Both the position numbers and the translations under genes were made by a program. This document shows, in pieces, positions 8,516-46,642 of a DNA stretch of 64,000 nucleotides; within the stretch, counting starts at the first letter, position 1; each line of letters starts with the position of its first letter. The DNA lies in assembly GCF_014642915.1 (NCBI RefSeq), contig NZ_BMJE01000001.1:62001-126000 (forward strand), in the 5' to 3' direction. This DNA comes from Flavobacterium suaedae (GTDB taxonomy: Bacteria > Bacteroidota > Bacteroidia > Flavobacteriales > Flavobacteriaceae). A model generated the notes under the pieces. The model was not told the DNA's origin. It did not search any database and saw only the letters and a list, made by a program, of their open reading frames with translations.

Positions 8516-10654
8516 ATGAAGATTGATATCCATACACATACTAAAAAAATCAAATCAGGAGATGCTCCAACACGCCACGTTGAAGTAGAAGATTTCCAGG
8601 AAATCTTACGCAGTACAGATGTAAAAATCCTTGCGATCACGAATCATAACCATTTTGATGTTTCCCAATATAAAGCTCTACGGGAGTCTGTCGCAGGACA
8701 TACGGAAGTATGGCCGGGGATTGAGCTGGATATCTTGGAAAACGGTAAGCGATCGCATATACTGGTTATTGTAAATCCATCCGTAGTGGACGAATTTGCC
8801 AATAGGACGAATACGCTTTTGGAAGGAGTAAATGCTGACACCTTTACAATCTCTTTGGACGATACGGTGAAGCTATTTGATGACCTGGATTGTGTTTATA
8901 TCGCTCATTATCTTGCTAAGAAACCTAATTTAGGTGATGCGGAAATCAATAAATTATTAGGTCTTGTTGCCAATCCAAAAAGGGTGCTTAAAGAAGCTAC
9001 GAATTCTATTTCAGCCGGTATTTACATAAGCCACGGACATAATTCAATATATGGCTCTGATGTTCATGACTGGAGCCTCTATCAGCAACAATCACTGGAT
9101 TTACCAGAGCTAAGGTTGCCGGTTTCAAGTTTTGAGCAATTTTGTCTTCTACTTGAAAAGGATGAAGTAACGATTAATACGCTGCTAAACAAGAAAGTTA
9201 AAGAATCTGTCGAAATCGTACCGTTCACGGTGGCAGATATGGTGAAACTAGATATTTATAATGATATTAATATATTATTTGGCTCCAAGGGGACCGGTAA
9301 AACAGATATCCTTGATTCGCTGTCAAAATATTTTAACGAAAAAGGGCATAACACCTCAGTTTATAAATCTAATGATATACATCTCAGCGATGAATTTGAT
9401 ATCAAGGGACATGACTTTCACGTTACAGCATCTGATTTAGGGTTTAATAATTGTACAGAAGAAATTAATTCGCTGAAATCTGCAACCGACCATGATGTGA
9501 CAAGCCTGTCAAAGTATAAGCAATATTTCTCTTATACAGAAACGAACAGGATTTCTCAAAAACTAAAGATAAAAAACATTACAAAAGAAGACGAGGGTCA
9601 GCCCGGCAGGCAGCTATTTGTTATTAAACATATTGTGGAAAAATTCAGTGAATTTACCGCATATATTCACGAGAACCAAAATCTTAGCAAATTTATAAAT
9701 GAGCAACTTTTAAATGAATTACAAGATGTATTGGAAAGGATTTTGGGCGATTTAAAAGACGAGTCTGAAGAAAGCCTGGTCAATTTACAATCAGTCAAAA
9801 TGCTAAATAGCATAATAGATATATTTATAAATGAAATCGCTAAAAAGACCGGTACTCCACAAAAACCAAGCAGGACCGGATTTGCTGAATATGCAAGTAA
9901 TAGAATGAAACTCGAGGTTCAGGTTAAAAAAATTATCTCTAACATAAATCATCGGATTACTCCGATGAAAGAATTGGCCGGTAGTTTAGGAGTTAAAGGA
10001 AATCTTTACTGCGTAACCAACCTTATTGTTCAAAATGGATCATTTACTGATGGAGCATATACGACAGTTAAAGATGTAAATAAAACACCACAAAAGTCTT
10101 TTTCAAAAAATTTACTGATAATAATTAATCATTTGTATGAGAATAGCCTGTTTGAGAAGATAACTGAGTTAAATTCGATTGAGGGTATTGAAACGATAAA
10201 CAGCATTGAGGATCTTTTGCTGTTTTACAGGCATTTTACGTTAAACGACAATTTGTATCACCCATCGAGCGGAGAATCTTCAATGATATTATTGCACAAA
10301 GAGTTATTAGATGACAAAGAGATATACTTGATTGATGAACCTGAAAAAAGCTTAGGCAATGATTATATTAATGATGTAATTGTACCTATACTTAAGGAGA
10401 AAGCTGCATTAGGAAAAAAAGTTATTATTGCTACCCATGATGCCAACATTGCAGTAAGGACACTACCTTACAACTCTATTTATAGGTTACACGATCAAAA
10501 TCAATATTATACAATGACAGGAAATCCGTTTTCAAATACACTTAGATGTATTTATGGAAGTAGAAAGGAATTAGACTGGAAAGAAATTAGTATGAAAACA
10601 CTTGAGGGCGGAAAAGAAGCCTTCGGAGAAAGAGGAAAAATATATGGAAACTAA
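8516..10654 (+). CDS. PHP-domain phosphoesterase fused to an ABC/SMC-type ATPase
   Basis: 712 aa. The N-terminal PHP domain (about 1-190) has a full set of candidate metal ligands: HTH at 6-8, ITNHNHFD (41-48), GIELD with Glu70, His81, His131 and GSDVH (180-184). An ATPase domain follows with Walker A GSKGTGKT (256-263), a long helical insert, a signature-like SSGESS, Walker B IYLIDEPE (603-610) and an H-loop ATHD about 30 residues later. PHP-AAA proteins of this plan are, to my memory, named TrlF-family ATPases and occur in defence islands; a nucleic-acid-directed role is inferred. Gene order and an 11-nt overlap tie it to the next small gene. AT-rich compared with the tra genes. Confidence 0.8.
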   Translation: MKIDIHTHTKKIKSGDAPTRHVEVEDFQEILRSTDVKILAITNHNHFDVSQYKALRESVAGHTEVWPGIELDILENGKRSHILVIVNPSVVDEFANRTNTLLEGVNADTFTISLDDTVKLFDDLDCVYIAHYLAKKPNLGDAEINKLLGLVANPKRVLKEATNSISAGIYISHGHNSIYGSDVHDWSLYQQQSLDLPELRLPVSSFEQFCLLLEKDEVTINTLLNKKVKESVEIVPFTVADMVKLDIYNDINILFGSKGTGKTDILDSLSKYFNEKGHNTSVYKSNDIHLSDEFDIKGHDFHVTASDLGFNNCTEEINSLKSATDHDVTSLSKYKQYFSYTETNRISQKLKIKNITKEDEGQPGRQLFVIKHIVEKFSEFTAYIHENQNLSKFINEQLLNELQDVLERILGDLKDESEESLVNLQSVKMLNSIIDIFINEIAKKTGTPQKPSRTGFAEYASNRMKLEVQVKKIISNINHRITPMKELAGSLGVKGNLYCVTNLIVQNGSFTDGAYTTVKDVNKTPQKSFSKNLLIIINHLYENSLFEKITELNSIEGIETINSIEDLLLFYRHFTLNDNLYHPSSGESSMILLHKELLDDKEIYLIDEPEKSLGNDYINDVIVPILKEKAALGKKVIIATHDANIAVRTLPYNSIYRLHDQNQYYTMTGNPFSNTLRCIYGSRKELDWKEISMKTLEGGKEAFGERGKIYGN

Positions 10655-10961
10655 GAAAGCTACAATTTTAAGAGAAGGGGACGATACTGTATACCTTGAA
10701 CTACATCAAGCTGATGGGACTTTGAGAATAGCATTAACCGATAATAATCCTAATAATATTAAAGATGTTTTTAATAAGCTAATTAAAGGTTTGAAATTAG
10801 GACAGTTCACTTTTGAACTGGTTGACGACAAGGAAGATTTATATCATCATATATGTGTTGAATATTTAATTCAGTTAAATTCTGAAATGGAAAGCGTTTA
10901 TAACGAACTTAGAGATTTAAGTTTATTAGAAAATACTCAAGAAGTGGATAATAGCAATTGA
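10644..10961 (+). CDS. Small acidic partner of the PHP-ATPase, unknown
   Basis: 105 aa from the ATG at 10644, which overlaps the end of the PHP-ATPase gene by 11 nt and has a purine-rich agaggaaa stretch upstream; a longer frame from 10602 would run deep into the upstream gene. The protein is acidic, with a beta-rich start (ATILREGDDTVYLELH) and a helical end rich in Leu and Glu. No motif was recognised. The overlap implies co-translation, so it may be a regulatory or adaptor subunit of the ATPase. Confidence 0.65.
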   Translation: METKKATILREGDDTVYLELHQADGTLRIALTDNNPNNIKDVFNKLIKGLKLGQFTFELVDDKEDLYHHICVEYLIQLNSEMESVYNELRDLSLLENTQEVDNSN

Positions 10962-11095
10962 GTACTTAGAGCATACACCTGTTAAATCACCAATGGAGGA
11001 AATTTGTTTACACAATTAAGCTGTTGACAATATAAATAGTTTTCTCTTATTTGGTAACTGCGCGCAAATTAGTTCGTTTAATAAAATTTCGCGAA

Positions 11096-11153
11096 TCGCA
11101 CCGGACGGATTTAATATATTCTATAAAGTTAATTGTGCTAAATACTGGTGCGA
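11096..11153. repeat. Separated inverted repeat upstream of the HEPN-like gene
   Basis: tcgcacc (11096-11102) and ggtgcga (11147-11153) are exact complements separated by 44 nt, in the 237-nt gap before the 11199 gene. Nearby cgcgcaaatt and aatttcgcg form a further imperfect pair. They may be operator sites; no clear -7 element was seen. Confidence 0.3.
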
Positions 11154-11198
11154 ACGCAACCATTTAAATGTTATTTATAATTTTCTTACTTTTATCTA

Positions 11199-12485
11199 AT
11201 GAGTGAACATTCAATTGAAAATTTAATTGATAATATATTTAGTTCCAAGACAAGAGAATACTTTCACGAAGTTATTCAAACATACTATACAAATTGCTAC
11301 AGGTCGTCAATAGTGATGCTTTATTCCGTAGTTATATGTGATCTTATTTATAAGCTTGAGGAACTACGAGATGTGTATAATGACTCTACGGCAAAAAAAA
11401 TCCTTATAGAAATTGAGGGATTACAAAAAGCTAATCCAAAATCTTCTGATTGGGAAAATAAGCTGGTAGAAATGATAGCAGATCGTACAAAACTACTCGA
11501 GATTTCAGACGTCGAAAATATTAACCAACTTCAAAAACATCGTCATTTATCGGCTCACCCAGTTCTTAATCAGACCTCTCTTCTATTCAAACCCAATAAG
11601 GAAAACGTAAAGTCGCATATTATAAATATGTTGAGCGGGGTTTTGACAAAGCCTCCAATTTTATCTACCAAGATATTTTCGGAGCTTGTAAATGATCTTG
11701 CTACTAATCGTGACCGTTTTTCGGAAGATAAAGATTTGAAAAGATTCTTGTCGGCAAAATATTTCAAAAATCTACGTCAAGAAACTTTAGATGATATATT
11801 TAAAAAGATATGGAAATTAGTTTTTAAGCTTGAAAATGAAGAATGTGATCTTAACAGGGAGATTAATTACAGAACCATAAATATAATTTTTGCATTGAAT
11901 CCTCCAGAAATTTTAAAACTTTTGAAGACTGAGGAAGCGCATTTTGATGGTATACTTCCTAAAGTTTGTACAAATTACTTTTTTAATTTCCTTTTTGACA
12001 ATCCTAAAGCCTATAATGTGCTTAGCGAATTGAATAAGGCTCATGTTGATCACGAGATAGAAAATTCATTGGAGTTTAAGTTTTTAAGTTGGTTTAAGTT
12101 CGACTCAATCATGGAATATCATGAATTTATTTTATCGGAAATTAACGATGGAGGAACTTTTTATCTGCCAATGGAGATTATCCATAAGCTAAAAGAATTA
12201 TACAAAGATTTCAACATGAAAGAAAAGTTCTTGGATTTATATATCGCAATCTTTGCTAAAAGTAATTTATTTGATACCGCAGATAGAAACTTTAATCAAT
12301 TAATTCAACCTTATTTGGAAGATTTTTCAGAAGGGCAACTTCAAAATATTGTTTATGCCATAAATAACAATGGTCAGTTACACAATCGTGGTTTGGCAAG
12401 ATATTCGAATAGATTGGTAAAAGCTGAATTGGATAGAAAGATTACCGACTTTAAATATTCAGATTTATACAACTTCAGGACCTAA
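11199..12485 (+). CDS. HEPN-like protein with R-x4-H motif
   Basis: 428 aa. The first 125 residues read as a HEPN-type helical domain: a long helix with NCYRSSIVMLYSVVICDLIY (32-51), then a second region ending in RHLSAHP, giving R-x4-H at Arg115-His120, the catalytic signature of HEPN ribonucleases. The remaining 300 residues are helical, rich in Lys, Leu and Phe, and not recognised. Many HEPN proteins act in abortive infection or as toxins; RNA cleavage is inferred. Single gene in the AT-rich cargo, convergent with the HNH-HEPN pair. Start ATG follows an AT-rich leader. Confidence 0.6.
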   Translation: MSEHSIENLIDNIFSSKTREYFHEVIQTYYTNCYRSSIVMLYSVVICDLIYKLEELRDVYNDSTAKKILIEIEGLQKANPKSSDWENKLVEMIADRTKLLEISDVENINQLQKHRHLSAHPVLNQTSLLFKPNKENVKSHIINMLSGVLTKPPILSTKIFSELVNDLATNRDRFSEDKDLKRFLSAKYFKNLRQETLDDIFKKIWKLVFKLENEECDLNREINYRTINIIFALNPPEILKLLKTEEAHFDGILPKVCTNYFFNFLFDNPKAYNVLSELNKAHVDHEIENSLEFKFLSWFKFDSIMEYHEFILSEINDGGTFYLPMEIIHKLKELYKDFNMKEKFLDLYIAIFAKSNLFDTADRNFNQLIQPYLEDFSEGQLQNIVYAINNNGQLHNRGLARYSNRLVKAELDRKITDFKYSDLYNFRT

Positions 12486-30615: not shown

Positions 30616-31773
30616 TTACGTCTCATCAATTCTTCCTATTTTTATTTTTTCTGCTGCCTCCCTTTTTCGCTGATCCACCACCTTGGTATAAATTTGTGTT
30701 GTCTTTACGCTTTTATGCCCCAGCATCTTAGATACGGTCAATAAGTCAGTACCATGGGCAATCTGTAGTGTGGCGTAGGTATGTCGGAAACAATGAAAGG
30801 TGATATGCTTGCTGATACCCGCATCGGTTACCCAAATGGGCACCAGCCGGTCAAAATCCCACTTTTTAAGGTTTGGAAATACCAATTCTTCAGTACCAGT
30901 TGGTTTACCCAGTATTTCATATGCCATTTCAGAGATTGGAAGGTTCTCCTGTCGTTGGGTCTTTTGCTGCGCGAACCTAATATAATATCCATCATTTAAA
31001 GTATGCTGTACTTCTTTCCATTTAAGTTTTCGGATATCCGAATAGCGCATGCCCGTCAGTATGGAGAACAAGCTGACACGTTTTACGACTTCCTTTTTGC
31101 AGGGAGTGTGGAATAGTGCCGTGGCCTCTTCCAGCGTCAGGAAATTCCGTTGTGATTCCTGTTCCTTAATCCCTTCGATACCTGCATTCACATCAGTGCG
31201 CAATAATCCTTCCTTATAGGCTTTCTTTAGGGTGGTTCTTAGTTTGTTGAAATACGACAGCGCCGTATTCCTGGCCAGTACCTTTCCGGTATCCCTTCTG
31301 CTTTTGGCCTTTAACAGATAGTCACGGTAATCATCCACTAACACTATCGTGATATCCCCGAAACTTAATTTCTGACCATCGGCAAAGTTTTCAAAATGGC
31401 AGATGGCGCTCTCCCAAATCTCATTGCTTTGCCCCGAACGTTTTGCTGCCTGCTTTTTGAAGTAGGGCAGGAAGGGACGTTTGGCAATTTCTTTCTGGCG
31501 CAGCTGCTCCAACTCAAAAGGCGTATAGATAAATTCCTTGTTTACCTCGTTGCGGCGACGGGTGCATATCATTTCAGCCATTCTCAGGTTCTCGGAATTA
31601 TTGAGTTTTTGGGCAAAACCCTTCGGTTTTTCATAGATGTACAGTTTCAGGAATTCCCTTCGGGTTTGAATTCCAGTCTCCGAATCGGTTACAGGCGGGT
31701 AAAAGTCAAGATACAGTGACTTCCTGCCGCCGCTAAGTGTTTTGCTTCGTAATGTTACACGTGTCTTTTTCAT
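30616..31773 (-). CDS. int: Tyrosine recombinase integrase of the ICE
   Basis: 385 aa. N-terminal arm-binding domain (about 1-100), core-binding SAM-like domain (about 100-205) and catalytic domain with Arg243 (TGMRYSDI), Lys271 in a beta-hairpin, His327 and Arg330 (HCFRHTYA), His353 (LGHKS) and the nucleophile Tyr362 (IYTKV). All six conserved positions are present, so it should be active. It overlaps the zinc-ribbon/HTH gene by 4 nt (ATGA) and is its downstream partner. Convergent with the excisionase-like gene. Confidence 0.95.
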   Translation of the reverse strand: MKKTRVTLRSKTLSGGRKSLYLDFYPPVTDSETGIQTRREFLKLYIYEKPKGFAQKLNNSENLRMAEMICTRRRNEVNKEFIYTPFELEQLRQKEIAKRPFLPYFKKQAAKRSGQSNEIWESAICHFENFADGQKLSFGDITIVLVDDYRDYLLKAKSRRDTGKVLARNTALSYFNKLRTTLKKAYKEGLLRTDVNAGIEGIKEQESQRNFLTLEEATALFHTPCKKEVVKRVSLFSILTGMRYSDIRKLKWKEVQHTLNDGYYIRFAQQKTQRQENLPISEMAYEILGKPTGTEELVFPNLKKWDFDRLVPIWVTDAGISKHITFHCFRHTYATLQIAHGTDLLTVSKMLGHKSVKTTQIYTKVVDQRKREAAEKIKIGRIDET

Positions 31774-35948: not shown

Positions 35949-36451
35949 ATTGATAATAATCGAATTATTCATTTTTTATTTAAATGTCATAATTTAAATA
36001 CTTACTTTTTAAATAATATTTATGCTGAAAACTATATAATATCCCCCTTATTATTATATAAGTTTATCATTATTTAGTATTATTTTTTATCAAAAAACAA
36101 CGTTAAAAATTTTGTTATTTTTAACGAAATTAACAAATATTTAGTTTTACAGTTTTTTTTGAGCACTTTTCTTACAAACTCTCATTGTAATTAACTTTTC
36201 TATAAAATTATTAACTTACTGATTGCTAATAATTTTAAAGTGATTTTTATCATAAATCCTTTCAACCAAATAATTTTTTTTATACTTTTACCACCGAATA
36301 AATTACAGATACGAGCAGTAAAAACTAATTGAGAAGAAAAAAATTATAACAATAAAGTAGAAAACATTAAGGATTTGTAAATCTTTAGATTACTATTGCG
36401 GCTAAAAACGGGGGGCCTGTAGTTAATATAATAAAGATTAAATTTAAGATT
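35949..36451. other. AT-rich leader region of the glycosyltransferase operon
   Basis: About 500 nt without a gene. Only a 10-bp inverted repeat (cgttaaaaat 36101-36110 / atttttaacg 36117-36126) stands out. A short G-run (gggggcc, about 36410) breaks the AT-rich context. No consensus -7 was found, so regulation of the operon downstream is unclear. Confidence 0.4.
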
Positions 36452-37657
36452 ATGAGATATTTGTTTGATTATATCGAACACTTTTGGATATCCTTAAGTT
36501 CGTTCCCGTTTGTAATTCAAATAGCTATATTTTTTATATTTTTCAGTACAGCGGCTACTTTAAGTTTTATGATTGCTGTATTCATTATCCGAAGAGATAA
36601 GAAAAGAAGAGAAAAAATAGTTAGAGAATTGCGCCCACGTATTTTCTCGTTCCTGAGAAACATACTTATTTCCAAAGAAGATTATACAGATGAGGAAGTT
36701 TACGATAAGTTTGAAGAAAACTTTGGTAAGCTAACTAAAAAGATATATATATCATTAATACCTACACTTGAAGATGTTGTAGGGCAGGAGAGTGGTCATT
36801 TAGACTCACCTAATTATTATAATATAATTAGAGGACTTAAAATAGATGATTATTTAGAGAAACGTCTTGACTTCTCTAATACGAGAGTAAGATTAAGGGC
36901 TTTCCACTCATTATCACGATTAGACCTTACAATATCCGATTCAAAAATACTTCCCCATACCTATGCTAAGAATAAATCGCTTAGAAAAGAGTCGAGAGCA
37001 TCATACGTAGGGGTAAGTAAAAACGATCCTTTTAAATTTTTTGATTTAGATAATGATTTAAATCAATGGGATCAAATAAGTTTACTGCAACAGTTTATAT
37101 TACATCATAAAGATAACTTACCAAACTTTAGTAAATGGATTAAGTATTCAAAGGACTACAACCAAATAAAATTCTTTATAAAATTAGTAGCATATTTTAA
37201 CCAGGCATCATCAGTAAGTGCTTTAACAGAATATCTGGATCATGAAGATCACTCTGTAAGAAGAGAAGCTATACTTGCAATGGGGCGTATGCGTGTAAAA
37301 GAAATAGAATCTCATTTAATAAAAATATATAATACACAGCCTTTAATTTGTCAAAATGCTATTATAGAAGCTGTTTCGTATATAAATTCAGGTAAAGCTA
37401 TAGGTTTCCTTAAAAGTGCATACGAGTCAGCCAGTGCTCACGACACTAAAAGATTAATAGCAGAAGTAATATACTTATACGGAAAGACAGGTGAGGCTTA
37501 TTTTGAGGAAATATATAAACAAGAGCAAGGGTTTAATCACTTGATATTAGAGCATGTAAAAAACCCCTTAATTCCTTCTATGTTGCGTAATTATCATAAA
37601 AATAAAATGAAAGAAGATTACACATCAGTAGAAGATTTAAATTTAAAAGTAACGTAA
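36452..37657 (+). CDS. Membrane HEAT-repeat protein, first gene of the EPS-like operon
   Basis: 401 aa. A transmembrane helix near the N-terminus (about 24-46: FFIFFSTAATLSFMIAVFII), a charged linker, an internal helical domain and HEAT-type repeats in the C-terminal half (ALTEYLDHEDHSVRREAILA; AIIEAVSYINSGKAIGFL). It would hang in the cytoplasm from the inner membrane. Upstream of the glycosyltransferase by about 80 nt; possibly a scaffold or regulator of the synthase. Inference from context. Confidence 0.75.
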   Translation: MRYLFDYIEHFWISLSSFPFVIQIAIFFIFFSTAATLSFMIAVFIIRRDKKRREKIVRELRPRIFSFLRNILISKEDYTDEEVYDKFEENFGKLTKKIYISLIPTLEDVVGQESGHLDSPNYYNIIRGLKIDDYLEKRLDFSNTRVRLRAFHSLSRLDLTISDSKILPHTYAKNKSLRKESRASYVGVSKNDPFKFFDLDNDLNQWDQISLLQQFILHHKDNLPNFSKWIKYSKDYNQIKFFIKLVAYFNQASSVSALTEYLDHEDHSVRREAILAMGRMRVKEIESHLIKIYNTQPLICQNAIIEAVSYINSGKAIGFLKSAYESASAHDTKRLIAEVIYLYGKTGEAYFEEIYKQEQGFNHLILEHVKNPLIPSMLRNYHKNKMKEDYTSVEDLNLKVT

Positions 37658-37736
37658 CCTATAAAGGCAATAAAGCCTTGTTTTTAGCTCTTTTTACTTA
37701 CTATTTATTCCTACATCTCCTTAATATCGCTTGTAA

Positions 37737-39203
37737 ATGGGATTAACCTATAACTTTTTTGAATACTTTGTATTTTTCTACGCCTCGTCTATGTTTTTAG
37801 CATATTTAATACTGGGTGTATTTTCCTTCATTAGTATAACACGTTACCGTACCTATAACTCCAGGTTAGATGACCAGTTTTTACTGGATTCTCCTTTAAC
37901 TCCCGGAATTTCAGTTGTTGCACCTGCCTACAACGAAGAGAAAACCATTATTGTAAATGTAAAATCATTACTTACCTTAAATTATCCACTATATGAGGTG
38001 ATAATTGTAAACGATGGTAGTAAAGATAAAACGTTGGAACTATTAATAGAGGAGTTTGATATGAAGGAAACTCCATATGCCTATGTAGAGCGTATTAAAA
38101 CCAAACCTTTTAAAAGAATATTTAAATCTACTAACCCAAAATATGAAAAATTAACGGTAGTAGATAAAGAAAATGGTGGTACAAAGGCAGATGCGTCAAA
38201 TGCAGGAGTAAATGCTTCGCAATATCCCTACTTTTTATGTACAGATGTAGACTGTATATTAGAACGTAACACCATGCTTAAAATGATTAAGCCAATTCTT
38301 AATGCTAAAGAAAGGGTAATTGCAGTAGGTGCAACGTTAAGAATGTCTAACAGTTGTGATATAGAGGAGGGGGTAATAGAAAGAGTAAAACCACCTACAG
38401 GACTTATACCCAGATTTCAGGAACTGGAGTACTTAAGAGCTTATCTTTTTGGAAAAATGGGGTGGAGTCTCATCAACGCAGTACCAAACGTTTCGGGAGG
38501 ATTAGGACTTTTTGATAAAGAAATAGCAGTAAATGCCGGAGGGTATGATGGAGATTCTCACGCTGAGGATATGGATATTTTGACCAAAATGGCAGCATAC
38601 ATGATTAATAATCACCAAAAATATAGTATAAAGTACATACCTGTTTCTTGTTGTTGGACTGAGGGACCACCTAACGTAAAAATTTTAGGACGTCAGCGAA
38701 CACGTTGGTCTACGGGTTTAGCACAGATATTCTTTGTACACAGAAAGATATTACTAAATCCTCGTTATAAAAAGCTGGGGATGATAGCTTTTCCATTTCA
38801 GTTGATATATGAATTCTTGGCACCTGTTATTGAGGCAACCGGTATTGTGTACTTTATATACCTGATACTAAAAGGTGATGTAAACTGGTCTATGGCAGGG
38901 TATATATTCCTGTATTCCTATTCATTAGCTATAATGTTCGGGACACTGGTAATACTTATGGATAACTTTGTGAAACGACAATACAAAACAGGTCGTGAAA
39001 CGTTTAAACTTTGGCTCGTAGTATTTTTAGAGCCATTTATCTACCACCCATTACTAATATTTTTCTCCTTAAAAGGATATTTTAACTTTTATACATCCAG
39101 ACAGATGGAATGGGGTACAATGACAAGACAAGGTTACGATACCAAAAACAAAAAAGGAACTCCTACACCAAATATAAATACAGAGAACAATAATAATGGA
39201 TAG
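37737..39203 (+). CDS. Processive family-2 glycosyltransferase
   Basis: 488 aa. An N-terminal transmembrane segment, then a GT-A domain with VVAPAYNEE, VNDGSKD (Asp93), TDVD (169-172), HAEDMD (about 276-280, catalytic base region) and QRTRW (320-324), the QxxRW of polymerising enzymes such as cellulose, chitin or PNAG synthases. Three or four C-terminal transmembrane helices follow (YFIYLILKGDVNWSMAGY and after) that could form the channel. Its sugar donor cannot be told from sequence. Overlaps the TPR-barrel gene by 8 nt, so the operon is tightly coupled. Confidence 0.88.
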   Translation: MGLTYNFFEYFVFFYASSMFLAYLILGVFSFISITRYRTYNSRLDDQFLLDSPLTPGISVVAPAYNEEKTIIVNVKSLLTLNYPLYEVIIVNDGSKDKTLELLIEEFDMKETPYAYVERIKTKPFKRIFKSTNPKYEKLTVVDKENGGTKADASNAGVNASQYPYFLCTDVDCILERNTMLKMIKPILNAKERVIAVGATLRMSNSCDIEEGVIERVKPPTGLIPRFQELEYLRAYLFGKMGWSLINAVPNVSGGLGLFDKEIAVNAGGYDGDSHAEDMDILTKMAAYMINNHQKYSIKYIPVSCCWTEGPPNVKILGRQRTRWSTGLAQIFFVHRKILLNPRYKKLGMIAFPFQLIYEFLAPVIEATGIVYFIYLILKGDVNWSMAGYIFLYSYSLAIMFGTLVILMDNFVKRQYKTGRETFKLWLVVFLEPFIYHPLLIFFSLKGYFNFYTSRQMEWGTMTRQGYDTKNKKGTPTPNINTENNNNG

Positions 39204-42060
39204 GTTATTTAAAAATATAAAATATATAGTTGTTTGTGTGCTTTTACTGGGCTTTGCAAGTACAGCCTATTCACAAACATCCGATGAGTATTTCCAGATG
39301 GCTAAGCGGGAAGGAAAACAAAAAGGAAATTTTGCTGCTGCTGCTGAGTATTGTGAAAAGGCTTTGGAGTTAGCACCTTTAGATATGGATATTAAAGAAT
39401 ATCTGGGAAAATGTTATTTGGAACTGGGAAGACTGGAAGAAGCCCGAATTACATTGCTTGATGTACTGCAAAGAAGTCCCAGACGTACAGATGCGAGGCA
39501 CTATCTTATAAATATAGAAACACAAACAGAGCGATATGCCAGTGCAATATGTTATGTAAACGAGCTACTGGAAATAACACCATACAGCAAAACGCTTTGG
39601 ATGCGTAAAATAAACTTGTATAACCTTGACGATAATAAGGTAGAGGCAAACAGGGAGACAAAAAGACTGTACCAAATATTTCCTCAGGATGAGGAAATAA
39701 GGCAAATGTATCATAATGTTTTAATGGAAGATGCATTGAAAAAAAGTAAGGCAGGCGACCTTACAGGGGCAGCAAAACAATATCAGGCAGCATTAAAAGT
39801 AAGCAAATATAATTCTGACCTTTACCTAGGATTGATTAACCTGTATATTAAACTTGGCAATACTAATGAAGCACTTAACACAGCAGATATGGGGCTTTAT
39901 TATTTACCTGATAACAGAGAAATATTAGATAAGAAAATAGGAATACTGGAGCAACAACACCGTTATCAGGAAGCTATTGCCATTGTACAGGAGCAATTAA
40001 AAAAATGGAATTCTCCATCATATAATAAACTATTAACTTACCTAACAGCAGAAGCAGCACGCCATTATAAAAATTCAGACCCTTATGTGTTGTATGGGCA
40101 GGTATATTACCGAGATTCGGGTAATAGTGAGGCGCATGATTACTTACTAACCACGGCCCTTTCACGAGGGTATTACCATGATGCCCAAAGAATACTAACA
40201 GAAGACTTAAAATCTAATCCTAATTCTAAAGATTTACTTGTAAAACAATTATTTGTTTATGAGAATTTAAAGGATGAAAAGGGAACACGCCAAACTTTAG
40301 AAAGGCTTTACGAATTATATCCAGAAGATACTGATATACGTGCTAAGTATAATGCTATGAGGTTTGAAGATGCTAAACTAATGTTTGCCAATGGTAACCA
40401 TAAAGAAGCATTACCAATTTTTATAAGACTTTCTGAAAATCCTGATTATGGAAAGCCGTCTAAAAATTACATTTTTTCGATATACGTGGCAAAAGCCAAC
40501 TATGTGCAGGCAATGGAGTTAATCAATGAAATGATTAGAGAAAACCCGGGTGAACAAAGGTACATAATAAGAAAAATAGACTTGTTAATGGCTATGGAGG
40601 AATACCCTGAGGCTTATGAATTGGCAAGAACGTATAAAGAGCAGTACCCTGATAACTTGGAATATAAATATATGTTCAGGGATTTATCTGTTGAATATAT
40701 AAAATACTTAAATGAACATGAAGGCTACGAAACAGTAAAAGATGTAGCCGATGCTTTGGTTGAAGAAGACCCTGACAGCATGTTAGCGTACAACTATGCT
40801 ATTGGAGCAAGAATTTCTATGAGTCAATATGAAGAGGCTATGGAAATGATACAAAGAGCTTTAGACCGTTTCCCTGATGATAAGCAAATGCGCTTAAAAG
40901 AAGCAGGTGTTTATTCGCAAATGGGAGAACACGAAAAGTCAATTGAAGCGTTGCGTGCTTTGTGGCAGGATTACCCTTATAATCATGATATAAAAGGCTC
41001 ATTGGTAGAAGAAATGTTACTCCATGCCAAACAATTGCAGGAAGATGACGAACCTTTTCAGGCAAAAGCAGTATATCATGAAATTTTATTAATAAAACCA
41101 AATGATAAAACAGCAGCTTTAAAGCTGTCTAGTATTTATATTGACAGGCAGGAATATCCTGAAGCCATGAAGGTGGTGGATGACAGTTTGGAACTTAACC
41201 AAAACGATAATGATTTACTGTATAAAAAAGGAATAATTTATGAGCTGATGAAGGATTATAAGCGTGCCCGAAAATACCAGGGAATGTATAATCCTCCTGC
41301 ACATAAATATGATGAACATATAGAGCATTTAGAGTATTTAGATTCTCAGCTGCTTAAAAATCAAATTAATGTAAGCTACTTAAAAGCAACTTCAGATTCT
41401 ATTTTAATTACAACTTCAGTTGCTTCAATAGAGTATATGAGAATTAACAGAAGAGATACTTATGTTGCACGTCTTAATTATGCTGCCCGCTCTACCGGCG
41501 TAGGCGTGCAGGGAGAAGTAGACTGGTATCATACATTTAAAAATAAATCATATTTACTGGCAAATGCGGGAGTGGCAAACAGATTTTTTCCTGATTTTAA
41601 AATAGGAGCATCATTATTTAAGCCATTTAAAAAAGTATGGCAAGCAGAACTTGGGGCTCGTTTTACCAGATTAAGTAACGAAACTAACTTTTATACCGGT
41701 ATAATAGGACTTGAAAGAACCTATGACAGGCTATGGTTAAATGCTAGAGTTATGTTAATGGCAGATAGTGAAGACATATATAATAGTATTTTAGCCCAAG
41801 GAAGATTTTATTTAGATAATGATAGAGATTACCTTACAGTAATGGGTTCGGTGGGTACAGCGCCACAAGACCAAAAACTGGATTTTCAGATAAATACGTT
41901 TACATCTTATGTAAACACAATGGTAGGAGCAGGATATTTCCATTTTTTCAGTCACAGAACCAGTTTTGGGGTTATGGGTAATTGGTATAATTATCGTGTT
42001 ACACCAACCTCATATATCAACCAGTATAACTTATACTTAACGGTAAGAACTAAGTTTTAA
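39196..42060 (+). CDS. TPR-rich protein with C-terminal YaiO-like outer-membrane barrel
   Basis: 954 aa. Signal peptide (about 1-27, ending AYSQ), then many tetratricopeptide repeats (roughly 28-690; e.g. AAEYCEKALELAPLDMDIKE and YPEAMKVVDDSLELNQND). The last 240 residues form a beta-rich domain (DTYVARLNYAARSTGVGVQG, then alternating strands) ending in YLTVRTKF, a typical barrel C-terminus and similar to YaiO-family barrels. The order TPR then barrel is that of PgaA, which guides polymer through the periplasm and outer membrane. Same role proposed here. Confidence 0.82.
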   Translation: MDRLFKNIKYIVVCVLLLGFASTAYSQTSDEYFQMAKREGKQKGNFAAAAEYCEKALELAPLDMDIKEYLGKCYLELGRLEEARITLLDVLQRSPRRTDARHYLINIETQTERYASAICYVNELLEITPYSKTLWMRKINLYNLDDNKVEANRETKRLYQIFPQDEEIRQMYHNVLMEDALKKSKAGDLTGAAKQYQAALKVSKYNSDLYLGLINLYIKLGNTNEALNTADMGLYYLPDNREILDKKIGILEQQHRYQEAIAIVQEQLKKWNSPSYNKLLTYLTAEAARHYKNSDPYVLYGQVYYRDSGNSEAHDYLLTTALSRGYYHDAQRILTEDLKSNPNSKDLLVKQLFVYENLKDEKGTRQTLERLYELYPEDTDIRAKYNAMRFEDAKLMFANGNHKEALPIFIRLSENPDYGKPSKNYIFSIYVAKANYVQAMELINEMIRENPGEQRYIIRKIDLLMAMEEYPEAYELARTYKEQYPDNLEYKYMFRDLSVEYIKYLNEHEGYETVKDVADALVEEDPDSMLAYNYAIGARISMSQYEEAMEMIQRALDRFPDDKQMRLKEAGVYSQMGEHEKSIEALRALWQDYPYNHDIKGSLVEEMLLHAKQLQEDDEPFQAKAVYHEILLIKPNDKTAALKLSSIYIDRQEYPEAMKVVDDSLELNQNDNDLLYKKGIIYELMKDYKRARKYQGMYNPPAHKYDEHIEHLEYLDSQLLKNQINVSYLKATSDSILITTSVASIEYMRINRRDTYVARLNYAARSTGVGVQGEVDWYHTFKNKSYLLANAGVANRFFPDFKIGASLFKPFKKVWQAELGARFTRLSNETNFYTGIIGLERTYDRLWLNARVMLMADSEDIYNSILAQGRFYLDNDRDYLTVMGSVGTAPQDQKLDFQINTFTSYVNTMVGAGYFHFFSHRTSFGVMGNWYNYRVTPTSYINQYNLYLTVRTKF

Positions 42061-42066
42061 AACTTT

Positions 42067-44202
42067 ATGATAAAGAAATTAGCTTTTATATTGGTTATAT
42101 TTATTGGTTTGAGCTGCGATAGCAAGTCTCAGAACTTTGTGTTGTATAAAAAAGGTAAAGTAATACCTGTAGTTAAAGTTAATAGTGCCGATTTACATCC
42201 TTTAGCTGAAGATTTATGTGACCTTTTTGAGCAGGCAGCAGGCATGCGCCCTGAAATAATTGAAGGTAGTACTCCGAAAGGAACTCCTGTTATAGAAATT
42301 GGATATTTAAAAAATAAAGAAGCAGAGAACTATACCTTTTCATTTACTCAAAAAAAGAGTGATTTTATTATTGAAGGTGCAGCTAAAGAAAGCCTTTATT
42401 ATGCTAACAGAAAATTTTTTGAACTGTATACTGGGGCAAATCAGTTTAATTTCAGCTCAAAAGAAGATAAACTGACAGAAATAAATATACCGCGTAATTT
42501 GGAATACAAGTTTACTCCTGATTTTGAATATAGAGAGCCTTATTTTCCGCAAAACTTTAAAGAGCAATTCAGACGTTGGAACATGACACATACTCTTGAT
42601 GAAGAATGGGGTATATGGGGGCACAATATTAATAAAGCTGTTAAGGTTACTGAACCCATGCTTGCAACTGTTAACGGTGAACTTAATGAAGAGCAATTAT
42701 GCTTTTCCAGCCCTGAGTTGAAAGCTGCTTTAACCGATTACATAAAAAATCAGATAGCAGAGAAAGCAAAGCAGTCAAAGTACATGATAATGCCTAATGA
42801 TAATGCTTTGGTATGTCAGTGTGATAGATGTAAAGCTTTAGGGAACACCGAAAAAAATGCAAGTCCGGCTGTTTTTACCTTATTAAACATTTTAGCTAAA
42901 GAGTTTCCTGAAAAACAATTTTTTAGCACTGCTTATATAACCACACAACAACCTCCGGAATTTAAACTTAAAGACAACACAGGTGTTATGCTTAGCACTA
43001 TGGCTTTCCCTAAAGGAGTAGTTATAGCACAGTCTAATAAAAAAGACTTTGCCGAAAAGCAGCTTTCAGAATGGAAAAATGTCACTAATACTATTTACTT
43101 GTGGGATTACGCAATTAATTTTGATAATTATTTAGAGGTATACCCAACTGTAGAAATTATGCAGCAAAACCTGCAATTTTACAAAAGCAGAGGAGTAACA
43201 GGTGTTTTTATGCAGGGGAGTGAAGGTACCTATAGCTCGTTTAGTGATTTAAAGAGTTATTTATACGCTCAGTTATTACAAGATGCTAATGTTAACTTAG
43301 AGCGTTGTATGAATACTTTTTTTAATGAAAACTATCCTGAAGTTAATGATTTGCTTTTTGATTATTATACAAATGCTGAGAGATTAGCGTTAGAGTCTAA
43401 AAAAGCATTTGATATATACGGAGGCTTCAACCAGGCATATGATAAATACATAGAGAAATCAGGTTTTGATTTATTCTATGACCGACTTATACAACGAACA
43501 GATACACTGGATATTGAAAAAAATAAAGACTTACAAAAATTACTCTTAAGTTTTACCTTCCAAAAACTGGAAATGTTACGCACCAAAGGTATAGGCGTGG
43601 GTGGTTATGCTGAACTAACGGAAGAAGGAAATATTAAAATAAAGTCTGTTACACATACACTTTTTGAAAGGCTTAAAAAGCTTAAAAAACAAACAGGTAT
43701 AGAAGAGTATAATGAATCAGGTTTAAAGCTGAGTGATTATATAGTGCATTGGGACGAAAAAATCTTAAATGGCAACTACAGTAATTTATTACTGAATAAA
43801 AAAATACAGTTTTTAACACCTCTGGATGAAGATTACCCTAATGGACGTATGTTAACTGATGGCGCAATAGGCTTTCCTGATTACTACAATAATTGGCTTT
43901 TAATTAGCCATGAAGCCCCTTCAATAAAAATATATACGGAAGATGTAGGTAATGCTTCAACAATTAAAATGAACTTTTTAGTTGATGAAAGGCATAGAAT
44001 ATATCCGCCAAAAGAAGTAAGGGTAAAAATTAACGGGCGTCAATATGGTGCAGAGGTTACTACTGAAGAAGGTAGTTATAAAGCTACGGCAGTTATACCT
44101 ATAGCAATAAAAGAGGGTGATGAGGCTATTATTATCACGATAGTAAAACAGCCTGATTACACCAAAAGACCAATAGCCTGTGATGAATTATACTTTAAAT
44201 AA
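42067..44202 (+). CDS. DUF4838-domain lipoprotein, glycosidase-like
   Basis: 711 aa. Signal with lipobox (FIGLSC, Cys18). The N-terminal 120 residues resemble the alpha-glucuronidase-type accessory domain. The core (about 150-480) has the DUF4838 hallmark CQCDRCKALG and TGVFMQGSEGTYSSFSDLKS, and a TIM-barrel-like layout. A C-terminal beta-sandwich follows. Catalytic residues are not identified. Beside a polymer synthase and exporter it could trim or bind the polysaccharide. Six nt downstream of the barrel gene. Confidence 0.75.
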   Translation: MIKKLAFILVIFIGLSCDSKSQNFVLYKKGKVIPVVKVNSADLHPLAEDLCDLFEQAAGMRPEIIEGSTPKGTPVIEIGYLKNKEAENYTFSFTQKKSDFIIEGAAKESLYYANRKFFELYTGANQFNFSSKEDKLTEINIPRNLEYKFTPDFEYREPYFPQNFKEQFRRWNMTHTLDEEWGIWGHNINKAVKVTEPMLATVNGELNEEQLCFSSPELKAALTDYIKNQIAEKAKQSKYMIMPNDNALVCQCDRCKALGNTEKNASPAVFTLLNILAKEFPEKQFFSTAYITTQQPPEFKLKDNTGVMLSTMAFPKGVVIAQSNKKDFAEKQLSEWKNVTNTIYLWDYAINFDNYLEVYPTVEIMQQNLQFYKSRGVTGVFMQGSEGTYSSFSDLKSYLYAQLLQDANVNLERCMNTFFNENYPEVNDLLFDYYTNAERLALESKKAFDIYGGFNQAYDKYIEKSGFDLFYDRLIQRTDTLDIEKNKDLQKLLLSFTFQKLEMLRTKGIGVGGYAELTEEGNIKIKSVTHTLFERLKKLKKQTGIEEYNESGLKLSDYIVHWDEKILNGNYSNLLLNKKIQFLTPLDEDYPNGRMLTDGAIGFPDYYNNWLLISHEAPSIKIYTEDVGNASTIKMNFLVDERHRIYPPKEVRVKINGRQYGAEVTTEEGSYKATAVIPIAIKEGDEAIIITIVKQPDYTKRPIACDELYFK

Positions 44203-44220
44203 AAATATATAAGGTTTGTT

Positions 44221-44796
44221 ATGAAAAGACCTGTAAAACATAAAATTATAATCAACTTTAAAAAAGTACTGTTACTTATTAGTACACTCATGCTGGTTTC
44301 TTTACTGCAAGGGTGTAAAAGTGACAGAGAAAATGCTTTTTTAGAGCTTACTACTATGGAGATAGAAGACTCCATAAGGCACTATTACCCTATATTACAG
44401 GGCTTAGAGCAAAATATAGTAGTGAAAATTACAAATACGGGTGAAAACCCTTTAAAACTGTATAAGGTATTGCCTTCTTGTGGGTGTACTACTGCCGAGT
44501 TTACCGAAAGAGCTATTGCGCCGGGCAATAGTGGGTTTATAGAACTAAAATACAACAGTATTAAAAATATAGGTAAAGTAGGTATTTATACCACTATAAT
44601 AGCCAATACAAAAAAGCGTTCGCACACTATGTACTTTGATATTCACGTAGTACCCGATGCTTTATATACTAAAGATTACGAAGAACTTTACCATATACAG
44701 GAAGAAGAAAAAGGAGGTCTTCAGGAAATGGTAGAAGGTGAAACCAACCAACGTGGCTATGTGGTAGACTCTACTGAAGTACAGAAGTATATGTAA
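44221..44796 (+). CDS. DUF1573 lipoprotein
   Basis: 191 aa. An N-terminal hydrophobic stretch ends with a likely lipobox (LLQGC). The DUF1573 beta-sandwich covers about 55-150, with the family's KVLPSCGCTTAEF and TTIIANTKK. These are surface or periplasmic proteins of unclear role, frequent in Bacteroidota. Last gene of the EPS-like operon, 18 nt after DUF4838. Confidence 0.8.
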   Translation: MKRPVKHKIIINFKKVLLLISTLMLVSLLQGCKSDRENAFLELTTMEIEDSIRHYYPILQGLEQNIVVKITNTGENPLKLYKVLPSCGCTTAEFTERAIAPGNSGFIELKYNSIKNIGKVGIYTTIIANTKKRSHTMYFDIHVVPDALYTKDYEELYHIQEEEKGGLQEMVEGETNQRGYVVDSTEVQKYM

Positions 44797-44842
44797 TATA
44801 AAAATTTAGTTTTTATAGTGCTGTAAGCCTGTACTATTGCTG

Positions 44843-44850
44843 TATATTTG
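44843..44850 (+). promoter_or_regulatory. -7 element of the MutS-like gene
   Basis: TATATTTG fits TAnnTTTG. It lies 20 nt upstream of the ATG at 44870 and inside the longer frame from 44837, which supports the shorter start. Confidence 0.55.
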
Positions 44851-44869
44851 TTTCTTTAGCATTACAAAA

Positions 44870-46642
44870 ATGGAATTTTATATTACCCAACTACAAGGTT
44901 ACAAAACATTACTAAACAAACTAAAAAAACAATACAACATAATAAGCATCAGCAGGCTATTGGTAGCTGTTGCCGTTATAGTATTACTTTGGTTCAGTAT
45001 ACAAGAGCAAAGTATAAATAGTTATTTATTACCTATAGCTGTTTTTATATTGGCGTTTTTCTTTTTAATGAACAGGCATACTGTTATATCCCGAAAAAGA
45101 AAAAGAGCAGAAGCTATTATAGCCATCAATCAGGATGAAATTACCCATTTAAAACGAGAAGGGAATAATTTTGAAGACGGTGCTGAGTTTACAGACCCAA
45201 AACACGAGTATTCTTATGATTTAGATATATTCGGGAAACACTCTATTTTTCAGCATATAAACCGCACGGAGACCTATAAAGGAAAAGAAAAGCTGGCAGG
45301 TTTATTCTTGAAATTGTTACCTCAAAATGAAATACTCAACAATCAGGAAGCGGTAAAAGAACTTACAATAAAGCCGGAGTTCAGGCAGGAAATTCAGGCT
45401 TTAGGACTTATAAAAAAGGATAACCAAAAAACATATTCCAAGCTAATAAACTGGAGTAAGGAAAAGGTAGTTGGTGTAAGCCTAATATCAAGACTATTAG
45501 CATTTTTACTACCTTTGGTGTTACTAGGGCTTTTTACTGCCTATATAGTAACACGCGACACCGCATTACTTTCCGCTTGCGGTTATGTATTTATATTTAA
45601 TCTGCTATTGGTTTTAGGCAAAATTAAAAGCCTGAGAAATGAAAATAATTATACTACAGAGGTTAATGAAATACTGCACCAGTACAGTTTAATAATCAAT
45701 CAAATAGAAAAAGAGAAGTTTAAAGCAGAAAAACTGTTAACATTACAAAACAAGCTATATTCAGGTAAAGAACCTGCGGGTAAACTCATAAAAACATTAA
45801 GCATACTGTTCTCTCAAATGGATACTGTAGGTAATGTTTTGGGTGCCTTGATTATGAATGGAATTTTCCAGTACCATGTACATATATTGGCAGGGCTGCA
45901 TAGCTGGAAAAAACAACATGCCGATAATATAGAAAACTGGCTGGATGTTATTGCCGAATTTGAAGCCTTAAACAGTTTGGCTAATTATTATTATAATAAC
46001 CAGGACTATATTTTCCCACAGCTTAATACAGAATACAAAATTGAGTTTAAAAACCTCTCTCACCCTTTATTAAATCCTGCTACACGTATTGGTAACGATG
46101 TTGCTTTTACTCCGCAATTTACGGTGTTAACAGGTTCTAATATGTCGGGGAAAAGTACATTTTTACGCAGCTTAGGGTTAAATATGGTTTTAGCCGGTAT
46201 GGGCGCTCCTGTTTGTGCCGATGCTGCTGTAGTACACCCATTGCCTGTATTGGTCTCTATGAGGCTTTCCGATTCTTTAGCGGATAGTGAATCGTATTTC
46301 TTTGCAGAGATAAAACGCCTTAAAAAGATAATGGATGCCGTTAAAAATGAGCGCTCTTTTGTATTGCTCGATGAAATACTGCGCGGTACAAACTCTGATG
46401 ATAAGCGCAGTGGTACTATAGCCGTTGTAGAAAAAATGGTAGGCTACAATGCCATTGGTGCAATTGCTACCCACGATGTTGAAGTTTGTGAAACTACGTA
46501 TAAATACCCTGATAGTTTAGTTAACCGTTGTTTTGAAGCAGAAATAACCCATAGCGAACTTTATTTTGACTACAAACTACGCGAAGGAGTTTGTAAAAAT
46601 AAAAGTGCTACTTTCCTTATGAAAAAACAGGGTGTTATATAA
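44870..46642 (+). CDS. Membrane-spanning MutS-family ATPase
   Basis: 590 aa. Hydrophobic helices at about 30-68 (LLVAVAVIVLLWFSI; LPIAVFILAFFFLM) and again near 210-245, a helical lever region, and a C-terminal MutS-type ATPase with Walker A GSNMSGKST, Walker B FVLLDEILRGTNSDD and ATHDVEV. The mismatch-binding domain I of MutS is absent, so this belongs with the MutS-related, membrane-linked proteins of Bacteroidota rather than mismatch repair. Start ATG 44870 is preferred. Substrate unknown. Confidence 0.85.
   Translation: MEFYITQLQGYKTLLNKLKKQYNIISISRLLVAVAVIVLLWFSIQEQSINSYLLPIAVFILAFFFLMNRHTVISRKRKRAEAIIAINQDEITHLKREGNNFEDGAEFTDPKHEYSYDLDIFGKHSIFQHINRTETYKGKEKLAGLFLKLLPQNEILNNQEAVKELTIKPEFRQEIQALGLIKKDNQKTYSKLINWSKEKVVGVSLISRLLAFLLPLVLLGLFTAYIVTRDTALLSACGYVFIFNLLLVLGKIKSLRNENNYTTEVNEILHQYSLIINQIEKEKFKAEKLLTLQNKLYSGKEPAGKLIKTLSILFSQMDTVGNVLGALIMNGIFQYHVHILAGLHSWKKQHADNIENWLDVIAEFEALNSLANYYYNNQDYIFPQLNTEYKIEFKNLSHPLLNPATRIGNDVAFTPQFTVLTGSNMSGKSTFLRSLGLNMVLAGMGAPVCADAAVVHPLPVLVSMRLSDSLADSESYFFAEIKRLKKIMDAVKNERSFVLLDEILRGTNSDDKRSGTIAVVEKMVGYNAIGAIATHDVEVCETTYKYPDSLVNRCFEAEITHSELYFDYKLREGVCKNKSATFLMKKQGVI

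Follow-up and report, generated by a model that had tools for sequence, protein, structure and literature searches.

A HEAT-repeat protein as a probable partner of the synthase of a putative exopolysaccharide operon in Flavobacterium suaedae and of related cassettes in bacteria and archaea

Introduction

To our knowledge, how matrix production is switched in bacteria nearly without cyclic di-GMP (c-di-GMP) domains is an open question. We examined five adjacent genes of Flavobacterium suaedae, at positions 36452 to 44796 of a 64,000-nucleotide (nt) stretch of contig NZ_BMJE01000001.1 (the window, whose positions number its loci throughout), which an earlier sequence-only reading had compared with exopolysaccharide machines of the Pga type. 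What do these genes make, and what controls their synthase? The answer that we consider rather likely is a c-di-GMP-free synthase, dependent on a HEAT-repeat protein, that exports a polymer, probably containing N-acetylglucosamine (GlcNAc), which is trimmed by a hydrolase of the GH163 type.

All five open reading frames claimed by the sequence-only reading were confirmed on the + strand, with lengths in amino acids (aa) and Pfam scores as follows:

36452..37657, + strand, HEAT-repeat protein, 401 aa (HEAT_2, 48.3 bits)
37737..39203, + strand, GT2 polysaccharide synthase, PgaC-like, 488 aa (Glycos_transf_2, 72.4 bits)
39196..42060, + strand, TPR protein with a C-terminal YaiO outer-membrane barrel, 954 aa (TPR_19, 141.9 bits; YaiO, 108.7 bits)
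42067..44202, + strand, DUF4838 protein, GH163-type glycoside hydrolase by family, 711 aa (DUF4838, 167.6 bits)
44221..44796, + strand, DUF1573 Ig-like protein, 191 aa (DUF1573, 64.8 bits)

All five proteins exceeded the curated Pfam cut-offs (HEAT_2, 27.7 bits; Glycos_transf_2, 23.3; TPR_19, 25; YaiO, 23.9; DUF4838, 26.6; DUF1573, 26.1). The genes for HEAT and the glycosyltransferase (GT) are separated by 79 nt, those for GT and the TPR protein overlap by 8 nt, and the remaining gaps are 6 nt (TPR/DUF4838) and 18 nt (DUF4838/DUF1573). The overlap and the 6-nt gap had been claimed before and were borne out by the coordinates; judged by this spacing, the five genes probably form one operon.

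Results

The HEAT protein and the synthase

The HEAT protein has one N-terminal transmembrane helix (about residues 28-46) followed by a helical-repeat region, which would face the cytosol. With the HEAT_2 match, this agrees with the earlier description of a membrane HEAT-repeat protein at the front of the operon. Its structure model was all-helical and weak (predicted local distance difference test score, pLDDT, 62.7).

The GT carries DxD at 170/172, ED at 277/278 and QRTRW at 320-324, and hydrophobic helices near both ends, as expected from the earlier description of a QxxRW glycosyltransferase with channel-like helices. In the alignment with E. coli PgaC (24% identity, 2e-29), the Q, R, R and W of the motif were invariant. 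QxxRW together with C-terminal hydrophobic helices is associated with processive synthases, and the protein is predicted to be an inner-membrane GT2 synthase acting processively. It has close relatives in Flavobacterium species (86-88% identity). Matches to solved structures were confined to the first part (about residues 50-109) and were to other GT2 enzymes, with E up to 0.001.

The HEAT protein was searched for in 148 genomes of the order (28 positive) and 198 of the phylum (17 positive). Profile searches of 395 phylum genomes gave 25 positives for DUF4838 (at 1e-30) and 81 for HEAT (at 1e-10, some being generic HEAT proteins). The locus survey comprised 71 fetched loci with 72 HEAT-family genes scoring above 75 bits, each counted here as one cassette; L046, L048, L129, L130 and L131 were excluded as generic HEAT (49-67 bits, with GT adjoining none), and L136 and L137, which hold DUF4838 without HEAT, stand outside the count. 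The next same-strand gene after HEAT was a GT in 71 of the 72, a biased draw, since the HEAT profile had been built from GT-linked members; in the exception, L120, no GT was found.

In the reverse test, plasmid records were searched with the window's GT, which yielded 172 matching records, 14 of them above 200 bits. HEAT lay directly before the GT in all 12 of the 14 that were fetched, the other two being further Mesorhizobium ciceri records. The 12 records span five phyla. The bacterial ones are from Bacteroides, Emticicia, Mesorhizobium, Erythrobacter, Devosia, Legionella adelaidensis, Planococcus, Paenibacillus and Deinococcus radiophilus, and those of haloarchaea from Halosolutus, Haloarcula and Salinirubellus. 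HEAT was confirmed in them by profile or Pfam; the Emticicia protein fell below the Pfam cut-off and scored 170 bits with the HEAT profile. Among nine fetched records below 200 bits, none had HEAT beside the GT, with no such gene annotated within 3-5 kb and no profile match, in plasmid records whose annotation is incomplete. In four of the nine, a gene for a deacetylase or DUF2334 adjoined the GT or was fused to it, and the other five GTs lay within proteins annotated at about 930-1150 aa. No HEAT gene was found by annotation or HEAT profile in the fetched stretches around E. coli pgaC and yaiP. Beside the HEAT-GT pair of Bacillota and haloarchaeal loci, no YaiO was found by profile, so HEAT appears to travel with the synthase rather than with outer-membrane export.

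A tree was built from 46 GTs, of which 25 were taken from the 73 rows of an earlier set and 21 were added; the GT of Devosia, annotated in two pieces, was left out. In this tree, the 35 HEAT-partnered GTs needed one label change. The support for this split was 39, with E. coli YaiP on a long branch inside it; the branch joining the HEAT-partnered GTs and YaiP had a support of 85. Both GT trees used in this study were quick ones built with no bootstrap, and PgaC, YaiP and one Paenibacillus GT were flagged as long branches in the 46-GT tree.

No description of the HEAT-GT pairing was found among the matches listed in searches of the open-licence PubMed Central literature, outside which most subscription journals lie, and it may be in print. 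The jobs of the HEAT and DUF4838 proteins, which the sequence-only reading had left as unknown, are narrowed by these searches and by the family assignment below: HEAT is a neighbor of GT far beyond Bacteroidota, and DUF4838 is listed as GH163.

In L057, L062, L067 and L110, the HEAT proteins bear long extensions (693-931 aa), and the C-terminal part of the L057 protein had no Pfam family match.

Response regulators and c-di-GMP domains

Of the 72 cassettes, 50 encode a single-domain response regulator upstream of HEAT and on its strand. It lies within 40 nt of HEAT in 35 of them and at 68-139 nt in 4; in the other 11 the distance is 0.9-2.3 kb, mostly with YaiO between. A further 12 cassettes had a regulator within 9 kb downstream on either strand, and 10 were without one. 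Of the 60 best-scoring short REC rows, 59 retain the phospho-acceptor Asp and all 60 the Lys. The cassettes of Mesorhizobium, Devosia and Haloarcula are flanked by kinase, regulator or Hpt genes. The gene order in the haloarchaeal plasmids L152, L156 and L157 is response regulator, HEAT, GT; on the Halosolutus plasmid, one small gene stands between regulator and HEAT, and a nucleotidyltransferase gene and glmS follow the GT.

The upstream regulator accompanied 1 of 16 cassettes with DUF4838 versus 49 of the 56 others (Fisher 2e-9, a test blind to kinship). It was found in none of the seven other loci with the window's five-gene order, three of which (L055, L075 and L098) show less than 1 kb upstream of HEAT. 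Loss of the regulator in the window's lineage was considered and is unsupported, since the base of the GT tree is open and three of the seven loci show so short an upstream stretch.

GGDEF and PilZ were each found in none of the 37 cassette genomes tested, while the same searches were positive in 8 and 5, respectively, of 14 control genomes. The window's genome also gave no GGDEF or PilZ match. Absence of GGDEF as a mark of cassette genomes was weakened by a phylum control, which showed the class to be scarce in GGDEF regardless. The synthases operate in a group mostly without c-di-GMP domains, and the absence does not set the cassette genomes apart from their kin. The HEAT protein may be a switch for the synthase.

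Conservation of the five-gene order

The order HEAT, GT, long TPR/YaiO protein, DUF4838, DUF1573 was present in 7 of the 72 cassettes (L041, L055, L075, L076, L077, L098 and L099), with the window as the eighth. These seven loci come from families f7, f17 and f54 and from three named Flavobacterium, L076 being that of Flavobacterium salilacus; five-gene loci thereby span Flavobacteriaceae, a second family of the same order and two more families of the class. In the GT tree, the eight five-gene GTs stood on one side of a branch with a Shimodaira-Hasegawa-like approximate likelihood ratio test (SH-aLRT) support of 95 (L120, having no GT, is absent from it).

The same order was found in Bacteroides finegoldii TSDC17.2-1.1 (NZ_OY725906.1, 25560-33886), annotated as HEAT, glycosyltransferase, hypothetical, DUF4838 and DUF1573; the hypothetical protein matches TPR and YaiO. 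This record is titled a plasmid yet carries dapB and lepB, and so may be a piece of chromosome. In the 46-GT tree, which includes six more five-gene GTs, its GT grouped with these at a support of 100. The check proposed along with the sequence-only reading, a search for the gene order beyond close relatives, thus had a positive outcome, since B. finegoldii and further families of the class also carry the order.

Outer-membrane part and comparison with Pga systems

The sequence-only reading had described a TPR protein ending in an outer-membrane barrel as in Pga systems. TPR repeats and barrel were both found, but the barrel (about residues 721-954) belongs to the YaiO family (PF19413) and not to the PgaA barrel family (PF21197), which E. 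coli PgaA itself matches at 460 bits; PF21197 was not among the matches listed for the window's proteins (the best 25 of 30). The protein scored 78.9 bits against TIGR04390 (cut-off 32) and 48.3 bits against the PgaA model TIGR03939 (cut-off 366.65). The barrel showed no relative among solved structures by sequence (best E 1.4). Outer-membrane barrels of synthase-dependent systems have 16 to 18 strands, according to the available part of one paper (PMC9601211). The TPR/YaiO protein is a candidate periplasmic scaffold and export pore.

The DUF1573 protein, present in 7 of the 8 cassettes with a long TPR-YaiO protein, may be an accessory protein. It carries a lipobox-like LQGC, in keeping with the lipoprotein status once claimed for both it and the DUF4838 protein; for the latter that status is uncertain, and a simple lipobox pattern had no match in the DUF4838 proteins of near relatives.

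The window's operon resembles PgaABCD in that a GT2 with DxD, ED and QxxRW, a TPR protein with an outer-membrane barrel and a periplasmic glycan-active enzyme occur in one cluster. It differs in having YaiO rather than the PgaA barrel, GH163 rather than PgaB, and HEAT with no PgaD, in a genome without detected c-di-GMP domains. The GT scored 133.3 bits against the PgaC/IcaA equivalog model, under the cut-off of 422.3, and this was nonetheless its best-scoring synthase model. Comparison of the PgaB and DUF4838 profiles showed no detectable likeness. Pfam found no deacetylase or PilZ domain in the five proteins, as the sequence-only reading had noticed, and PilZ was also not found genome-wide. 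As neither the PgaC nor the PgaA cut-off was reached and no PgaA barrel, PgaB or c-di-GMP domain was found, the operon falls outside the Pga family. The kinship with Pga had been overstated; the wider description, a synthase-dependent exopolysaccharide machine with an unusual part list, holds up, and the QxxRW GT2 with its transmembrane helices and the TPR protein argue for such a resemblance.

These scores bear on whether the genes nevertheless encode a true Pga system, which would make poly-beta-1,6-GlcNAc (PNAG) with GH163 standing in for PgaB and HEAT for PgaD. The top rank of the PgaC/IcaA model speaks for it, as do two polysaccharide-deacetylase matches elsewhere in the genome and the description of GH163, in the available parts of two papers, as an endo-beta-N-acetylglucosaminidase family (PMC9870897, PMC10154615). 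Both equivalog cut-offs are missed by far, however, the barrel and the hydrolase are of other families, and sister cassettes carry an LtaS-like transferase, as described below. We regard such a system as unlikely.

A second cluster for comparison is yaiO-yaiX-yaiP-yaiS of E. coli, which also joins a YaiO porin and a GT, YaiP, placed among the HEAT-partnered GTs on its unsure branch. It differs in that no HEAT or GH163 was found, yaiX being annotated as an interrupted acyltransferase and yaiS as a deacetylase. The window's operon may also be akin to Xanthomonas xagABC. That cluster, a putative glycosyltransferase cluster, is needed for biofilm according to a work cited in the available text of PMC3826837.

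Sister cassettes with an LtaS-like enzyme

An LtaS-like membrane enzyme was encoded in 26 of the 72 cassettes, fused to the GT in 15, behind the GT on the same strand in 8 and on the other strand in 3. The Pfam Sulfatase domain was confirmed in all four enzymes scanned, the nearest solved relatives being VP1736 and lipoteichoic acid synthases. The fusions measure about 1130-1270 aa (L044, L045, L049, L063 and eleven others) and have an alkaline-phosphatase fold; the joining of synthase and LtaS-like enzyme suggests a phosphate-bearing polymer. These phospho-transferases, to which we take BcsG to be comparable, stand near or fused to the synthase in sister cassettes only and were not found in the window's operon. 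We know of no Pga system that carries one. A cassette of each kind occurs in L061, the two standing next to each other. We considered and rejected the idea that DUF4838 takes the place of a PgaB-like enzyme found in sister cassettes: the scanned neighbors were LtaS-like, and 2 of the 16 DUF4838 cassettes hold both enzymes, so no plain swap is seen.

Glycolipid synthesis is also known for GT2 enzymes of the same fold, and in Gram-positives LtaS-type enzymes have lipid-linked polymers as substrates. The likeness to LtaS in sister cassettes would accordingly suit a GT that makes a lipid-linked or surface-attached glycan instead of a free polymer, with DUF4838 recycling that glycan. A TPR/YaiO protein is present in 54 of the 72 cassettes, however, and the QxxRW motif with C-terminal hydrophobic helices is that of processive synthases, which makes this explanation improbable to us.

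The DUF4838 hydrolase and the likely sugar

The DUF4838 protein has an N-terminal hydrophobic segment and is predicted to be exported. Its match to PF16126 (167.6 bits, cut-off 26.6) places it in a family of which a member is listed as GH163, endo-beta-N-acetylglucosaminidase, in the available text of PMC9870897. A structure model built from four sequences (pLDDT 71.8) was fold-like to GH115, GH84, GH67, GH138 and GH20 (best, VIA: Z 13.5, 468 aligned, root-mean-square deviation 5.1). By sequence, the DUF4838 profile matched the beta-hexosaminidase 6q63 through its N- and C-terminal parts (1.7e-10 and 4.4e-10). The best 50 structure-search matches listed held no GH163 entry, which is uninformative either way. 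H186, D245, C252, C255, W346, D347 and Y348 were invariant in 20 of 20 DUF4838 rows (17 from cassettes, 3 from elsewhere). By a manual strand count, D245 is placed after barrel strand four and D347 within strand seven, in a model that is poor there (pLDDT <50 at 245-247). The two residues are candidate catalytic acids, and the protein is a putative endo-beta-N-acetylglucosaminidase.

In 13 of 25 genomes, DUF4838 and a HEAT-family gene shared a contig and were no more than 10 kb apart, as read by eye from coordinates and with genes on separate draft contigs counted as unlinked; these 13 had the best scores. WGH occurred in 17 of 17 cassette rows versus VH in the three non-cassette proteins, among which the B. 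thetaiotaomicron enzyme is not included. That enzyme is of the same family, and the available part of PMC10154615 places it at the cell surface and ascribes to it endo activity on a GlcNAc bond; it differs in serving N-glycan breakdown, where the window's protein has a synthase and a porin as neighbors.

In Polaribacter dokdonensis grown with alga, a DUF4838/GH163 gene was up 18.5-fold and a GT2 gene 8.8-fold, both outside the polysaccharide utilization loci (PULs) of that study as far as its available text goes (PMC9870897). The two locus tags differ by ten, against steps of five between other tags of that study (PMC9870897). The two genes are thus probably separated by a single gene, and, judged by the tags alone, such a spacing is compatible with the HEAT-GT-YaiO-DUF4838 loci, for example L070 and L100.

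The Polaribacter response, which the available text reads as access to GlcNAc polymers (PMC9870897), could also mean that DUF4838 is catabolic, the operon answering foreign algal or host glycans and its linkage to the GT reflecting shared regulation only; another DUF4838 protein does adjoin GH20 and GH3 genes. Against this, Pfam found no SusC/SusD or transporter match in the five proteins, the Polaribacter genes are placed outside PULs, and the cassette-linked DUF4838 proteins are the 13 best-scoring of 25, with the order GT-porin-hydrolase kept. We give this explanation little credence.

An amino-sugar polymer is indicated by the kinship with PgaC, the GH163 assignment and the glmS and nucleotidyltransferase genes behind the Halosolutus cassette, that is, an amino-sugar supply. 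The polymer of the window's operon probably contains beta-GlcNAc.

Surroundings of the operon

Two further features were marked at the operon:

35949..36451, + strand, AT-rich region 5' of the HEAT gene, likely promoter-bearing
37664..37679, + strand, weak hairpin with a T-rich tail in the HEAT/GT gap, which may be due to chance

The scanned region held 48 promoter-like matches versus 53.5 in shuffles, no excess, and 9 terminator-like sites versus 6.3 expected. The G+C (GC) content of the operon stretch is about 0.29-0.36, as in the rest of the window's right half, and the left stretch is GC-richer (up to 0.54). A MutS-like ATPase gene (44837-46642) follows directly 3' of the operon; it was rejected as a sixth member, adjoining the cassette in three near Flavobacterium loci only.

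The GC-richer stretch at 1-32000 holds a tyrosine integrase (30616-31773, by Pfam) near the 3' end of an mnmE-like gene, and SusC/SusD-like genes named by eye; it looks like an integrated mobile element. Inside it, a low-GC island (8516-12485) encodes an AAA ATPase like the PADLOC candidate PDC-M49A (1.3e-32) and a PD-T7-3 anti-phage protein (9.9e-154).

Discussion

In the c-di-GMP-free, HEAT-dependent synthase that we favor, the GT2 would polymerize a nucleotide sugar at the inner membrane and thread the chain outward, as its kinship with PgaC suggests. The HEAT protein would sit beside it in the inner membrane as a standing partner that sets synthase activity. In most relatives, HEAT would probably be signaled by the single-domain response regulator encoded upstream; with no regulator gene in the window, its HEAT protein would have to respond to some other signal. 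Passage of the chain across the periplasm and the outer membrane would fall to the TPR arm and the YaiO barrel. DUF4838, as an endo-acting hydrolase of the GH163 type, may trim or release the chain, with DUF1573 as an accessory. Trimming of this type is what makes beta-GlcNAc probable in the chain.

Several observations weigh against this account. The 64 kb of the window hold no response regulator of the kind found upstream of HEAT elsewhere. GGDEF is rare across the class anyway, as 80 of 148 phylum genomes were positive and only G180 among them belongs to the class. E. coli YaiP, from a HEAT-less locus, falls inside the HEAT-partnered GT group, if on a long, unsure branch and with only 44.7 bits against the GT profile. 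In Legionella, the cassette has genes for a nucleotide-sugar dehydrogenase and epimerases as neighbors, and the sugar may therefore not be the same in all systems. In the available texts, the induction of Polaribacter GH163 is read as a response to algal GlcNAc (PMC9870897), and the cell-surface GH163 of B. thetaiotaomicron cuts GlcNAc-beta-1,2-Man and not a GlcNAc polymer (PMC10154615).

We also put forward, as a tentative extension, that HEAT and GT form a general unit, as yet without a name, by which polysaccharide synthases are controlled in both bacteria and archaea. A phosphorylated CheY-like regulator would dock onto the membrane-anchored HEAT solenoid and open the synthase, a two-component signal thus acting directly on polymerization; YaiO for outer-membrane export, GH163 for trimming and the LtaS-like enzyme, fused to the synthase in some cassettes, for the addition of charge would be plug-in modules, and the window's lineage, with no regulator in the operon, would use another input. 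If this were true, sugar polymerization would be under two-component control that bypasses both transcription and c-di-GMP, and the unit may merit a name of its own.

For the DUF4838/GH163 family, the linkage described here suggests a second role, in making glycans rather than eating them. A synthase partnered by HEAT, mostly together with a single-domain response regulator, is a concrete candidate answer to how matrix production is switched where c-di-GMP domains are scarce, and the presence of the pair in haloarchaea, Bacillota and Bacteroides finegoldii may make it relevant to biofilms generally.

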